From: Umbelopsis ramanniana AG
Taxonomy: Eukaryota; Mucoromycota; Umbelopsidomycetes; Umbelopsidales; Umbelopsidaceae
Reading direction: 5' to 3'
Length of the DNA: 64,000 nucleotides
NCBI RefSeq assembly: GCF_025399195.1
Contig: NW_026252088.1
Coordinates: 682,001-746,000, forward strand
Positions 15,255-21,461 of the stretch are shown here, piece after piece. Numbering within the stretch: the stretch's first letter is position 1; every line of letters starts with the position of its first letter. The position numbers were made by a program, and so were the translations under genes. The notes below the pieces were generated by a model, which made no database searches, was not told the DNA's origin, and saw nothing but the letters and a program-made list of their open reading frames with translations.

Positions 15255-18200
15255 CTACATTATCATTCGTTGTCTGCTGCCATGGGGAAGGAACGGTGCA
15301 CTTGCAATCGCCTTTGCTCTAACGCCATAAGGCTTATCACGTAACCAGATCCTAACCAGATTTTCATCATCCTTGGAAAATAACCTTGTAAATTCTTTTT
15401 CTTCTATCTGACAGCACTCCAGTCGATGGCAACATTCGATGTGCCGCCCTGCACCACCCGTCTGGGAATCTTTGCTATATGTCTCCACTAGCATGATGGA
15501 CCTGATATAGTGTACAATAGCCAACTTCAATGGTACCGAGCTTCGGTTTTCTTGAGCTTCTGCCATCTCTATCAGCTTTTCTACTCCTATGGATCGACCT
15601 TTAGCAAAACTTAAATCCTTCCAGCCTTTCAACGTTTTCAGTACAGAGCTTGCATCAGATCCTTCGACAAGTTGAACATCAAAACAAATACCGAAATGGC
15701 TGACCATAATGGGTGCTGAAGCTTCTGTGGGCTTTGCAATCATAATTCTGGCTTGACCAATAGCGGGTAAGTAATTCCGAAACATCATTGAAGTCGACTG
15801 GAAGCTTAGGAATGACACATCGCCTTTCTTGGTAGCTAGCTCATGAAATAATCTTTCACGAGAGCTAAGTCCCTCACCATACCCTAATGTCAAGTGAATG
15901 GAAAATACTCCTGCTAAAGCATAGGCCATGTCTTCACCGTATGTTGTCTTTCGAACATCCATTCTTGCTATGATTTCGACAGCATTTCCTGGTCGATAGC
16001 ATAAGTGAAGGTCGAGAGTACAAAGTTTATGACGTTGTTCATTGGCCAATTCTTGTATGGTAGCAAGGTTCCCTTCCTTGGAGATTCCGCATAGAACACC
16101 AGCTGCAGCTCCCTCTTGAAGGCACCAACCTCTATCGCACCATTCCTCCAGCGAAGTACCCGAGTCCAGTACAACAGCAGCACTACTAGCATACCACTTG
16201 TACATGGAACGAATAGCTCTGTCAAGCTCTGATAAATTCGACTTGTCGATGCAAATTGTATCCATCCATACATAGAGTGTATGCTTCTGCAAGGCTTTCT
16301 TGATACGGCGTAATTTTGCTGATAGATCACTAATTTTCTGACCACCTGATTGCTTTCCGTCCATCACATTTTGATACGTTGTTTCATTTTCAGACCATTG
16401 ATGAGTGACGAAGATAACCTTGGAGGCCACAATATTGTCTACCAGCATGTCTTGGTTCAGATCCCATACTCTGGTCACGATTTCCGGTTGCCGAATGCGC
16501 CAGATATCTATTCCTACAGCTTTTGCAGCAGCGACTGGCGATAGGGGAAGGTGAGTGCTATGTGCATCACAAGGACATCGGCGTCGATTACGAATCTGCC
16601 AGTCATCGTTCTCGTTTCTGGGTTCGCTTGGTGATGCACTTTGAATAGGATCCAATTCTTCACCAAGAACGGCCGTGACCAATTTTTCAACAAGTTTATC
16701 ACCGCCAGCAATACTAAGAATACTGAGGCCTGCTATCAAAATGGCATGTAAATCGGTTGCGATCTTTTGCTCATACTCTCCAAGGACATCTGAAAAAACA
16801 TCTTCATCAAGACGAGTTGACGATCTGCGGCATACGATTATAGCATCAATGAAACGAATATATGGATGGGTGCCTTTATGCCATGTTGGAACGGACCAAG
16901 AGGTATTTTTTGAAGGGATCTGAACAATCAATCGACCTTGTTCTCGAATGACACCTGTCATCTTGTCAAAGTGAGACGCCCACTCTGGAGGTTTTTTGTT
17001 GGAGCATCCTTCTATCTTCAACATAAAGAAATGATTGGATGTGAATAATCTGGCATCAAAGCAGGTGAGCAACGACTGGACTATTTCTATAGCACGGTCG
17101 CTGATAGACATTGTTCGTAACAGCGTCAATGACTGTAGTAATGAAAATTTTCCTGCTAAATCATCCTGCCCATCCTGTTCATCTATATTTGGCAAGCTAT
17201 CCAGCTGAAGGAACTTCCAAGGTGGAAATCCATAACCATATTTGTGTTTGATTTGCAGTAGCATTTCCTCATCACAATGGTTGTCTTTTTGAGATAGTTT
17301 GCATAATTTTTCTGAGTATTGGAGGAACTGCTTATGACATACTTCTTTGGTACGGCAAATCTTACCTTCGTGATTTCTATTTGAATTGCCTTTACATTCC
17401 TCAAAAACATCGCTGGATAAATCAATTCCTCCTCTATAGTCATCTGCCAATGAGGATGATACATTTAACTTTGTCTTTATCTCGCTTGATAACCGATTAG
17501 AGGATTCGATTAATGTTTCTCGCAGTTCTGGAAACTTGCTAACCATTGTTTGACGTATATTATCATCAATATCAACACTAGCTTCAATCAGCAACTTCAT
17601 GATTGCGGCCATCCGGCTATTGTAATAGTAACCGCTTTTACCATTGATTTCTTCAATAATAGTATGTGATGGACCTGAATCATCGTGCAAAAAGTCGACG
17701 GGAGCATCATGTTTCAGCAAAAGTCTGACCACATCAGGATTGAAACTCAACACTGCATAATACAATGGGGTAAGGTTTAGATGGTTTTCGGAATTGACGA
17801 TTGCACCGTGCTCAATCAACATAGCACATTCTTCTGTGAGGCCCCAGGACGCTGCCACATGTAATGCTGTTTGACCGCTGCTGTCTTTGGCATTTACATC
17901 AGCATTGCGCTTCACCAATAATGATACCAAATCAGTTTTCTTCTCGTAAATTGAAATATGTAGAGCTGTTCTTCCGTCTTGAAGTGTCTTTGCGTTAATG
18001 TCGATATTACTCTCAATCAAGAGATTTGCTAGTTCAAAAAAGTCTTTTTCTACTGCAATGTGTAACGCTGTTTCACCTGCACGATTCTTGGCATTAACGT
18101 CGAGTCCACGTTCAAGTAGTATAGCCACTCCTTTACAAACTCCACTTCTAGCCATGTAGTGAAGAACGGTTTCCTCATTATTGTCGGTCAAGTGCATATT

Positions 18201-21113
18201 GCAGCCACAATTTAACAGTATGAGCACTGCTTCAATTTGGCCCTTCGATGCATGATAATGTAGCACGGTGATATTTACCCTTTCTTTGCTTCTGGCATCT
18301 ATGCGAGCTCCACGATGAATTAACATAGAGATCGATTCCGGATGAGCGCCAGCTAAGAAGATTGATGATAGCCAGTCATCATCGCACGACTCAATATCCG
18401 CATCCATGTCCAAAAGACGTGATATCAGATTAGTGTTTCCTTGTAGTGAAGCTCTTTGCAATGCTGCATTCAGGTGGTATGCTCTTTCTTCGGTCTTTTC
18501 TATTTTATCTAATGCTCTTTCAACCAGCTTGACTTGTCCAGCATTTGTAGCAAGGTATAGCACTGACAGGTCATCATCATCTGCCGTTCCATCCGTCGCG
18601 CCCAAAGAAACTAGTCGATATACCATATCGATATGCCCTTGCAGAATAGCGCATTGAATCGGGGTGTTGCCATCTTTGTTTTTAGCACCGATATACGCAC
18701 CATTCTCGAGCAAGACAGTCAAAGCGTGGAAACAGTTGAATGATGCGGCAAGATGGAGTGCAGTATCACCATGAGCTGTTGTAGCTTCAATCATGACATC
18801 TCTTTTTAATAGAAATTCTAGAACAGCCAGATTGTCATCTTTAGCCGACCAATGCAAAGCCGTAAGAGAGTTGTTGTCAGCAGCTTCTATGTTGGCACCT
18901 TTGCTGATCAATAGAGAAAGAACTTGTAGATGTGAGCATTTTGCAGCAATTAGGAAAGGAGTCTGGCCATCGCTATCCACTGCTTCAACATTAGCACCAT
19001 GGTCTAAGAGAAGATGAATCATTCCTATATCGCCAATTTCTGATAGCTGAGCTAGAAGGGTTTTACCTCCTTCAGATCTTTCATCTACATTTGCATGTCT
19101 GCTAAGGAGCTGAGACACTATTTCGTTATATCCGTTTACTGCAGCTTTGTAAAGTGTGTTTCTTGAGCGGCCATCTTTTTCATCAAAAGCAGCATCGTGA
19201 TCGAGGAGTAATTTTACTACTTCCATGTGTCCATTTTCAGTAGCGTAGAGGAGTGCAGTTTCCGAATTTTCAGTTTTGGCATCAATCATGGCCCCATGTT
19301 TGAGCAGCAGCTGTACTGCTTCTTTATGTCCATGCTCAGCAGCTTGAATAAGTGCAGTACCCAAAAATGGCACTTCGACATCAACAATGGCCCCATGTTT
19401 GAGCAGCAGCTGTATAACTTCCTTGTGCCCGTTCTCAGCAGCCTGAATAAGTGCAGTACCCAAAGAAGGCACTTTGGCATCCAAAATGGCCCCACATTTG
19501 AGCAGCAGCTGTACAACTTGTTTGTGTCCGTTCTTAGCAGCCTGAATGAGTGCAGTTCCCAAATATATGTTCTTGACATCAACAATGGCACCATGCTCGA
19601 GCAGCAGCTGTACAACTTCTTTGTGTCCGTTCTTAGCAGCCTGAGTGAGTGCAGTACCCGAAAATGGCACATCATCATCCATGAGTGGAGATTCCGTAAA
19701 TGGCACTTCGACATCAGCAATGGCACCACGTTCGAGCAGCAGCTGTACAACTTCTTTGTGTCCGTTCTTAGCAGCCTGAATGAGTGCAGTTCCCAAATTT
19801 ATATTATTGACATCAACAATAGCACCATGATCGAGCAGCAGCTGTACAACTTCTTTGTGTCCATTTAGAGCAGCCTGTGTGAGTGCAGTACCGAACAATG
19901 GTATCTCTTCATCAAAACTGACTTGAGTAATCGTAAACGTGACTTCGACATCAACAATGGCACCATGTTTGAGCAGCAGCTGTACAACTTCAATGTGCCC
20001 GTTTCCAGCAGCATAATGCAGTGCATTTTCCGAATAGAAATTTTCAGCATTGATATTGGCATCATGTTCAAGTAGCAGGCGTATCACTTCTTTGTGCCCC
20101 TTCGCAGCAGCGCGGTGGAGCGCAGATTCCGAATATTGAGATTTGCTATCAGCAATGGCACCATATTCGAACAGAATTCGTATTACATCTTCGTGTCCAT
20201 TGAAAGCAGCCAGTTGGAGAGCGTTTTCCGAAAATTGATTTTCGGCGTCAACAATGGCACCATGTTCGAGCAGCAGCTGCACTACTTCTCTATGTCCATT
20301 TTCAGCAGCGCGATGGAGTGCAGTTTCCGAAAAGGACCTTTCGGCACCAACAACGAAATTTCTCTCAATCAGCAGCTGTACCAATTCTTTATGTCCATTT
20401 AGAGCAGCTCGGTAGAGGACAGTATCCGAACCCCAATAATGATGCATTGAACTAACCATGGCACTATGTTTAGACAGATGTACTACTATTATGTTTCTTT
20501 TCTTAGAAAATTGGTACAGTATATTTTTCAGATCTTGAGTTTTGGCATCAACAATGGCTCCATGTTCGAGCAGTAGTCGCACTACTTTTTCGTGTCCATT
20601 GGAAGCAGACCGGTGGAGTGCAGTTTCCGAAGTTTCATTTTTGGCATCAGCAAAGGCACCATATTCAAGCAGAAGCTGTACTACTTCTTTGTGACCATCG
20701 CTCGCAGCCAGATGAAGTGGAGTATCCAGTAGTTCATCTTCTGCATCGACAGCCGCTTTATGCTCGAGTAGCAGCTGTACTACTTCAGTGTGTCCATTGC
20801 CTGCAGCCAGGTGAAGTGGAGTACGTAGCATGTCACCATTTGCATCGACAGCCGCGTCCTGCAGAAGCAGGCGTTTTACTTCTTCACAATCTCCATCGCC
20901 TGCAGCCAGGTGAAGTGGCGAAACCTTCTGTTCATCTTCCGGACCATCGTTGTCATCATATTTCAACATAGACATGGCCCCATGTAAGTCCCCATCACTT
21001 TCTGTATTGAACTGTGGAAACCGCACATCTTTGTCCTGTAGTTCATCTTTTTTCAGGTCGAGATCAAAAGGCGTTTCGTCCATTGGCAAAATACGAAATG
21101 GAAAGAAAGGCAA
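15255..21113 (-). CDS. Giant ankyrin-repeat protein with C-terminal HET domain
   Basis: Single uninterrupted 1952-codon frame in a region where nearly every gene has introns. Residues 1-62 are an acidic leader. Residues about 63-1190 are some 30 ankyrin repeats of the GHKEVVQLLLEHGAIVDA type, several nearly identical and one (about 192-224) degenerate. Residues about 1190-1555 are a region I do not recognise. Residues about 1560-1770 match the HET domain: VIFVTHQWSE, YVWMDTICIDKSNLSELDRA, SMYKWYASSAAVV, DRGWCLQEGAAAG, then YGEDMAYALAGVF and LGYGEG, the order seen in fungal incompatibility proteins. A C-terminal tail of about 180 residues follows. No signal peptide or membrane segment is evident. 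HET domains trigger cell death in non-self recognition in ascomycetes; that role here is inference. A second ATG at codon 11 (MDETPFDL) is an alternative start. Confidence 0.9.
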   Translation of the reverse strand: MPFFPFRILPMDETPFDLDLKKDELQDKDVRFPQFNTESDGDLHGAMSMLKYDDNDGPEDEQKVSPLHLAAGDGDCEEVKRLLLQDAAVDANGDMLRTPLHLAAGNGHTEVVQLLLEHKAAVDAEDELLDTPLHLAASDGHKEVVQLLLEYGAFADAKNETSETALHRSASNGHEKVVRLLLEHGAIVDAKTQDLKNILYQFSKKRNIIVVHLSKHSAMVSSMHHYWGSDTVLYRAALNGHKELVQLLIERNFVVGAERSFSETALHRAAENGHREVVQLLLEHGAIVDAENQFSENALQLAAFNGHEDVIRILFEYGAIADSKSQYSESALHRAAAKGHKEVIRLLLEHDANINAENFYSENALHYAAGNGHIEVVQLLLKHGAIVDVEVTFTITQVSFDEEIPLFGTALTQAALNGHKEVVQLLLDHGAIVDVNNINLGTALIQAAKNGHKEVVQLLLERGAIADVEVPFTESPLMDDDVPFSGTALTQAAKNGHKEVVQLLLEHGAIVDVKNIYLGTALIQAAKNGHKQVVQLLLKCGAILDAKVPSLGTALIQAAENGHKEVIQLLLKHGAIVDVEVPFLGTALIQAAEHGHKEAVQLLLKHGAMIDAKTENSETALLYATENGHMEVVKLLLDHDAAFDEKDGRSRNTLYKAAVNGYNEIVSQLLSRHANVDERSEGGKTLLAQLSEIGDIGMIHLLLDHGANVEAVDSDGQTPFLIAAKCSHLQVLSLLISKGANIEAADNNSLTALHWSAKDDNLAVLEFLLKRDVMIEATTAHGDTALHLAASFNCFHALTVLLENGAYIGAKNKDGNTPIQCAILQGHIDMVYRLVSLGATDGTADDDDLSVLYLATNAGQVKLVERALDKIEKTEERAYHLNAALQRASLQGNTNLISRLLDMDADIESCDDDWLSSIFLAGAHPESISMLIHRGARIDARSKERVNITVLHYHASKGQIEAVLILLNCGCNMHLTDNNEETVLHYMARSGVCKGVAILLERGLDVNAKNRAGETALHIAVEKDFFELANLLIESNIDINAKTLQDGRTALHISIYEKKTDLVSLLVKRNADVNAKDSSGQTALHVAASWGLTEECAMLIEHGAIVNSENHLNLTPLYYAVLSFNPDVVRLLLKHDAPVDFLHDDSGPSHTIIEEINGKSGYYYNSRMAAIMKLLIEASVDIDDNIRQTMVSKFPELRETLIESSNRLSSEIKTKLNVSSSLADDYRGGIDLSSDVFEECKGNSNRNHEGKICRTKEVCHKQFLQYSEKLCKLSQKDNHCDEEMLLQIKHKYGYGFPPWKFLQLDSLPNIDEQDGQDDLAGKFSLLQSLTLLRTMSISDRAIEIVQSLLTCFDARLFTSNHFFMLKIEGCSNKKPPEWASHFDKMTGVIREQGRLIVQIPSKNTSWSVPTWHKGTHPYIRFIDAIIVCRRSSTRLDEDVFSDVLGEYEQKIATDLHAILIAGLSILSIAGGDKLVEKLVTAVLGEELDPIQSASPSEPRNENDDWQIRNRRRCPCDAHSTHLPLSPVAAAKAVGIDIWRIRQPEIVTRVWDLNQDMLVDNIVASKVIFVTHQWSENETTYQNVMDGKQSGGQKISDLSAKLRRIKKALQKHTLYVWMDTICIDKSNLSELDRAIRSMYKWYASSAAVVLDSGTSLEEWCDRGWCLQEGAAAGVLCGISKEGNLATIQELANEQRHKLCTLDLHLCYRPGNAVEIIARMDVRKTTYGEDMAYALAGVFSIHLTLGYGEGLSSRERLFHELATKKGDVSFLSFQSTSMMFRNYLPAIGQARIMIAKPTEASAPIMVSHFGICFDVQLVEGSDASSVLKTLKGWKDLSFAKGRSIGVEKLIEMAEAQENRSSVPLKLAIVHYIRSIMLVETYSKDSQTGGAGRHIECCHRLECCQIEEKEFTRLFSKDDENLVRIWLRDKPYGVRAKAIASAPFLPHGSRQRMIM
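19497..19967 (-). repeat. Higher-order tandem duplication inside the ankyrin array
   Basis: Two adjacent units of 237 bp (19731-19967) and 234 bp (19497-19730). Each encodes two ankyrin repeats plus the same kind of insertion: DVEVTFTITQVSFDEE in one and DVEVPFTESPLMDDD in the other. Neighbouring repeats between about 19300 and 19900 share long identical stretches at DNA level around the AGCAGCAGCTGTACAACTTC core, which indicates recent expansion or gene conversion. Confidence 0.75.
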
Positions 21114-21461
21114 GGTCTTGTTGCCTGAGGGCTTAGCCGTTAGCTATAAAGATTTTTGTGCAACAAAAATAGAGTCATTTGACTGTATCACCATCATAAC
21201 TTTGCGAACTAAAGTGAAAAAGGAGGAAAACGGCCTGCAACCTTCGATTACTTATATCTCAAGAAGGATCTGAATCGTCAGTAGTTACGGTCGTAAGTTA
21301 TTCAAATGCTATTCAGGTTAGAACATGGACGATTGCTTGTTGATGCTATCTCTAACGCAACACTCATGGGAGTCCTAATAACATGTTCCACCCTTTTTTA
21401 CTCTACATAACCTCTCCAAAGTTGGGCCCAGAAGTCATACAAATCCTACTACTCTGATACA

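Follow-up and report, generated by a model that had tools for sequence, protein, structure and literature searches.

How intracellular invaders are sensed in early-diverging fungi is a question raised by the description of these fungi as nearly without nucleotide-oligomerization domain (NOD)-like receptors (NLRs) (PMC9119436; this and the other PMC papers are cited for the passages drawn upon), and it is the question addressed by a gene family of the soil fungus Umbelopsis ramanniana AG. In the passages of PMC4986451 used here, no NLRs were found in microsporidia, chytrids, and Mucorales. One member of the family lies in a 64-kb stretch of contig NW_026252088.1 (positions 682,001 to 746,000; hereafter the window) and encodes a giant protein with an ankyrin array followed by a HET domain (Ank-HET). 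The reading that we favor, with a probability of roughly 0.55, is that this protein is a NOD-less intracellular sensor-effector and one copy of an expanded Umbelopsis family, in which the array would bind a cue and the TIR-like HET domain would trigger cell death. A preliminary description of the locus had assigned it, rightly, to a Mucoromycota fungus.

Architecture of the Ank-HET protein

The gene corresponds to the open frame at window positions 15255–21113 of the frame listing, which extends from stop to stop over 15255–21143. The frame given in the preliminary description proved to be real, but it lies on the minus strand, as do all the features located below; frame 1 of the plus strand contains many stops over 15255–21113. 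The 1952-codon version of the frame begins at a TTG, whereas the likely start is the ATG at 21083. The gene thus defined (15255..21083, with the stop TAG at 15255–15257) has a read-through product of 1942 aa, or of 1924 aa minus a candidate intron described below. The length of the frame, together with the individual HET matches of all 14 aligned family members, rules out a chance origin.

Pfam PF06985 matched the HET domain core at 16155..16403 with 24.9 bits in a search of the whole protein and 28.4 bits with its C-terminal piece, against a cut-off of 22.5 bits. The profile was also matched by 14 of the 14 members of the first family alignment (A1), which omits three copies from the AG genome owing to a run of N (L014), one stop (L019), and a long extension (L025). 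Comparison by hhalign of a 59-row family alignment (A2, with 45 of 67 public proteins included, the other 22 being mostly short or with ankyrins) with the Coniophora HET protein P0127 gave a probability of 99.8% (E = 6e-28). The five HET motifs listed in the preliminary description were all found, in the same order. In alignment A4, which consists of 17 chosen rows (three family members, a Mortierella protein, three metagenome relatives, and ten named Dikarya proteins), 29 positions were invariant in all rows, mostly inside or beside these motifs. In the numbering of the 663-residue C-terminal piece, which is used for residues such as E378 and H282, the invariant positions include D329, C332, E340, S347, W351, Y352, RGW, LQE, R432, T435, E438, D439, and YGE; H282 and W284 were kept in 16 of the 17 rows. 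Judged by these sequence comparisons, the C-terminal domain is a genuine HET domain, as had been proposed. The C-terminal part (15258..16004) holds the remainder of HET (TTYGEDMAYALAGVF, GYGEG) and a conserved C-terminal region ending RLECCQIEEKEFTRLF...IWLRDKP. N-terminal to HET lies a conserved middle region (16431..17246, from HKYGYG onward) without a Pfam match; in its structure model, the predicted local distance difference test (pLDDT) was below 50 only at residues 24–40 and 203–216 of the piece.

A stretch of the model (16005..16430, residues 273–414 of the piece) aligned weakly with TIR and nucleoside-deoxyribosyltransferase folds. It includes GWCLQE (16113..16130), whose glutamate, E378, was present in every one of the 59 rows of A2 and fell within a predicted helix (373–381) of the model built from these rows. 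By analogy with TIR (PMC9153377), E378 is a candidate catalytic residue: the catalytic Glu of TIR domains is located in helix alpha-C, and the equivalence is taken from PMC9153377 and PMC4986451, not from a superposition. An earlier model from 14 rows, with a pLDDT of 67 and only weak PDB matches, was superseded by the 59-row model, with which Foldseek returned nothing at E ≤ 0.001. By sequence, no PDB chain was matched by A1 at E ≤ 1 or by A4 at E ≤ 10, which sets the family apart from TIR domains such as SPARTA TIR, AbTir (7uxu), RPPT-TIR (7xoz), and ThsB.

The ankyrin array, the presumed sensor, is encoded at 17565..20921. With a repeat profile built here, 33 matches were counted at residues 55–1173 (two with scores below zero), in good agreement with the first estimate of about 30 repeats, and Pfam Ank_2 matched the protein with E = 4e-188. 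No NACHT or NB-ARC match was obtained in the protein at E ≤ 1, that is, the central (STAND) domain of NLRs was not found. The most homogeneous block of the array (19266..19895) comprises six repeats (residues 397–606) with pairwise DNA identity of up to 90%, and is overlapped by a 234-bp higher-order tandem repeat at 19468–20111. The variable codons of this block fell chiefly at repeat positions 29–33 and 1, plus 6, 10, 22–23, and 27, and partly coincide with the hairpin tip, described as the binding surface in fungal ankyrin NLRs (PMC4986451).

Two further properties of the array were considered and rejected. In the six-repeat block, the proportion of nonsynonymous differences (pN) exceeded that of synonymous ones (pS) at repeat positions 1, 15, 17, 23, 26, 27, 29, and 31–33; positive selection among the repeats was not accepted, because the position-wise excess rests on small counts and pN/pS among the repeats overall was 0.66. 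High internal conservation, defined as >85% identity over ≥100 aa (Dyrka et al., 2014), was narrowly missed, the best repeat pair reaching 28/33, and among the 22 proteins scanned (P0023 omitted) none contained a repeat pair at ≥85%. In two other AG arrays, the best repeat pairs reached 0.88 (L030) and 0.85 (L031), values that were not sustained along the array.

The Ank-HET family of Umbelopsis and its relatives

The AG genome (22.84 Mb, 123 contigs) was searched with the last 491 residues of the protein. This revealed 17 full-length loci, among them the window gene, plus four pieces that are fragmentary or decayed (L026–L029). Five of the full-length loci are located on one contig (C11), three on C52, two on C64, and one on each of seven others; at L030 one Ank-HET gene is directly followed by another, and L019 is a full-length copy with one stop. 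In 16 of the 17 loci the HET exon is preceded by ankyrin repeats, and the remaining one (L014) has a run of N there. Such runs lie in or beside the ankyrin arrays of two paralogs (L014:2953-4422 and L031:1-3578) and may represent either gaps of the assembly within repeats or withheld sequence. A genome-wide Pfam search for HET gave 18 matches, only one of them outside the family: a HET frame of 840 aa (L033:233-2755; C4:60500-65500) whose HET motifs, VALSHVWS, WIDSAC, and RAWTLQE, are of a different type.

Among public proteins, 20 of 22 matches belonged to Umbelopsis (eight from U. vinacea, nine from U. ramanniana, two from Umbelopsis sp. AD052, and one from U. nana). These 20 proteins have 12 to 38 repeats, with ≥430 residues between the end of the array and the C-terminus, and PF06985 was precomputed for 16 of them. 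The order observed in the AG loci and in these proteins makes ankyrin first and HET last, the arrangement originally reported for the window gene, the rule of the family and not a peculiarity of this copy. Of the other two matches, P0020 is a metagenome protein that has no array, and P0023 is a Fusarium pseudocircinatum protein of 1595 aa, named alpha-glucosidase 2, for which a HET domain is also listed. P0020 (1407 aa) and L025 (C52:90359-91777, open frame of 1515 aa) carry a long extension after HET with no Pfam match above the cut-off. The U. vinacea protein P0017 (1924 aa) has PF03069 besides the ankyrins and may be a gene-model fusion. Four public AG family proteins of 353–620 aa (P0040, P0061, P0072, and P0078) are listed without ankyrin domains; public gene models may thus cut off the ankyrin exon.

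The comparison of loci also bears on gene structure. In all 15 of the other full-length loci without a run of N at the junction, the ankyrin and HET frames are separate, the HET-bearing frame measuring 670–745 aa and, once, 1515 aa. In the 13 junctions read by eye, a donor was located close to where the ankyrin frame ends (GT in 12, GC in L024). At the corresponding position of the window gene, GTAAGA opens a candidate in-frame intron of 54 nt (GTAAGA...CTCAG, 17312..17365); the frame stays open without these 54 nt (1924 aa), and this stretch has no counterpart in the aligned U. vinacea protein P0003. From sequence alone, intron loss appears no more likely than an ordinary in-frame intron, and the statement that the gene is intronless is doubtful.

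Outside the family, a profile of eight members was used, with scoring confined to the 7997 candidates that shared most words and the best 120 of 182 matches considered. The nearest named outside relative among the matches listed was KVV02_007559 of Mortierella alpina (P0101, E = 1e-92), and many Dikarya HET proteins came next, the named ones from E = 4.5e-35 on. P0101, P0083, P0084, and P0096–P0109 are HET-containing relatives for which no ankyrin domain is listed. P0101 and the metagenome relatives P0083 and P0084 (544–607 aa) have a HET module akin to that of the Umbelopsis proteins as their sole precomputed Pfam domain. P0083 and P0084 differ from the Umbelopsis proteins in having Thr, not Cys, in RGWxLQE; W-C-L occurs in the other 57 of the 59 rows of A2. 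Thr stands at this position in 14 of the 17 rows of A4, where RGWTLQE of the Dikarya rows contrasts with RGWCLQE of the Umbelopsis rows. Dikarya HET proteins such as Coniophora P0127 have the core motifs in common with Ank-HET; unlike in these proteins, HET is C-terminal in Ank-HET, behind the ankyrins.

The preliminary description stressed the position of the gene outside Dikarya. For HET itself this is not new: in Mucoromycotina, Lichtheimia corymbifera was reported in 2014 to have 52 HET (PF06985) genes in an expanded, partly tandem family (PMC4133162), and Apophysomyces has HET genes as well (PMC5604411). The Lichtheimia expansion resembles the Umbelopsis family in both respects; the main text of PMC4133162 does not contain the word ankyrin. 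Neither "heterokaryon" nor "ankyrin" appears in the main text of the genome paper for U. nana (PMC13042297), and no published report of the Umbelopsis Ank-HET family was found in a search that left most subscription-journal papers outside. With HET in Mucoromycotina already known, what is new here is the NOD-less, reversed, and expanded Ank-HET form in an NLR-poor lineage.

Divergence of the array and the HET domain

On a tree of 57 chosen rows (L019 omitted), the window gene grouped with the U. vinacea proteins P0002 and P0003 (100/99), which are encoded by the consecutive locus tags INT44_006066 and INT44_006065. Identity of the window protein to this pair was 88–89% in HET, 81–84% in the middle region, 79–82% in the C-terminal part, and 63–77% in the ankyrin segments. 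Relative to the window protein, the array has gaps of 389 residues in P0003 (up to residue 606) and 46 residues in P0002, and the counts of repeat matches are 33 in the window protein, 31 in P0002, and 21 in P0003. The ratio of nonsynonymous to synonymous substitution rates (dN/dS, Nei-Gojobori) against the nearest AG paralog was 0.16 for HET, 0.35 for the middle region, 0.38 for the C-terminal part, 0.27 for exon 2, and 0.38–0.60 for the ankyrin segments. For L024 and L025, it was 0.22 for exon 2 and 0.31 for the portion of the array that was sampled; residue identity of this pair was higher in the ankyrin part (85%) than in exon 2 (80%). HET is under strong constraint, and the ankyrin array is less so. 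The variation in repeat number suggested for inspection in the preliminary description was seen between relatives, but no measured segment had dN/dS above 1.

For the 16 AG members on the tree, the top identity to any compared protein was 88.6%. U. ramanniana sensu lato contains cryptic species (PMC9506118), and the other assembly under this name may represent a cryptic sibling species. The divergence may reflect species distance as well as family turnover, and fast turnover is suggested rather than measured.

The genes near the locus include ZPR1 (upstream), SHMT, and a DUF1688 gene, and an Rfam scan of the window gave no match. The exact telomere repeat TTAGGG x3, sought as a mark of subtelomeric placement, was absent from the whole assembly.

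Proposed function and its alternatives

The sensor-effector reading builds on the architecture, the HET membership, the expansion of the family with its broken copies, the constraint on HET, the differences in array length and sequence, and the absence of above-threshold matches to NACHT or NB-ARC, from which we infer a role in defense. In such a mechanism, the N-terminal array would bind a cue, either a molecule of a parasite or antagonist or a guarded host protein. The middle region may keep HET inactive, and binding would release or cluster the C-terminal TIR-like domain. HET would then trigger local cell death or wall off the compartment, probably through NAD- or nucleotide-based chemistry. 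The closest known design is that of the HNWD NLRs of Podospora (HET-E/D/R: HET-NACHT-WD40), in which a repeat sensor and a HET effector are likewise joined in one protein (PMC12881547, PMC10197012); Ank-HET differs in that it is without NACHT/NB-ARC, has the reverse order and ankyrin instead of WD40 repeats, and its repeats are less alike.

Among the alternatives, a housekeeping or stress-signaling scaffold survives best, although we consider it unlikely. The array would gather partners in stress or development, HET would be structural, and the variation among copies would be due to drift. Every measured dN/dS below 1 is compatible with this explanation, as are the shifts in expression of Lichtheimia HET genes under iron depletion and hypoxia (PMC4133162); however, the expansion, the neighboring and broken copies, and the few close partners of the AG members fit a birth-and-death defense family better. 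Still less probable is an allorecognition (het) gene proper, with incompatible alleles between strains and a protein that kills fused cells. In its favor, known incompatibility proteins do contain HET domains (PMC10197012, PMC12881547), relatives vary in repeat number, and the compared set includes few close partners. However, incompatibility involves only a small share of HET genes, in P. anserina 5 out of 125 (PMC10197012), and, according to the passages of PMC4133162 drawn upon, Mucorales, an order neighboring Umbelopsis, form no heterokaryons by somatic fusion, which makes defense likelier than allorecognition. Although the frame is indeed open through the whole gene, the origin from a retrogene or by horizontal transfer that had been suggested from missing introns is highly improbable, since a GTAAGA donor is retained with an in-frame candidate intron at the family's intron position, the window gene nests in the Umbelopsis tree, and the nearest named non-Umbelopsis protein among the matches listed comes from Mortierella alpina, so that transfer is not needed.

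Returning to the NOD-less sensor-effector, its setting was surveyed by an exon-by-exon search of the AG genome, which could miss a gene split through the domain: NACHT gave a single match, which contained a stop and, at 23.5 bits, stayed under the 26.7-bit cut-off, and NB-ARC gave none. A more far-reaching proposal, possible but doubtful, is that Ank-HET proteins act as a functional stand-in for NLRs in this NLR-poor lineage, as a repertoire of NOD-less receptors made in one piece, each with a TIR-like HET enzyme driven by an expanding ankyrin array. In plant TIRs, nucleotide-cyclizing activity is tied to a Cys beside the catalytic Glu. By analogy, the Cys of RGWCLQE, typical of the Umbelopsis-type family and located three residues before the invariant Glu, could confer such an activity.

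The family supplies NOD-free HET domains, which are useful for the question of TIR-like enzyme activity in HET, and the natural U. vinacea pair P0002/P0003, with 31 and 21 repeat matches, offers a direct comparison of the role of the array. As a multigene family in which a repeat sensor is fused to a fungal death domain, the Ank-HET proteins provide concrete candidates for intracellular immune sensors in Umbelopsis.
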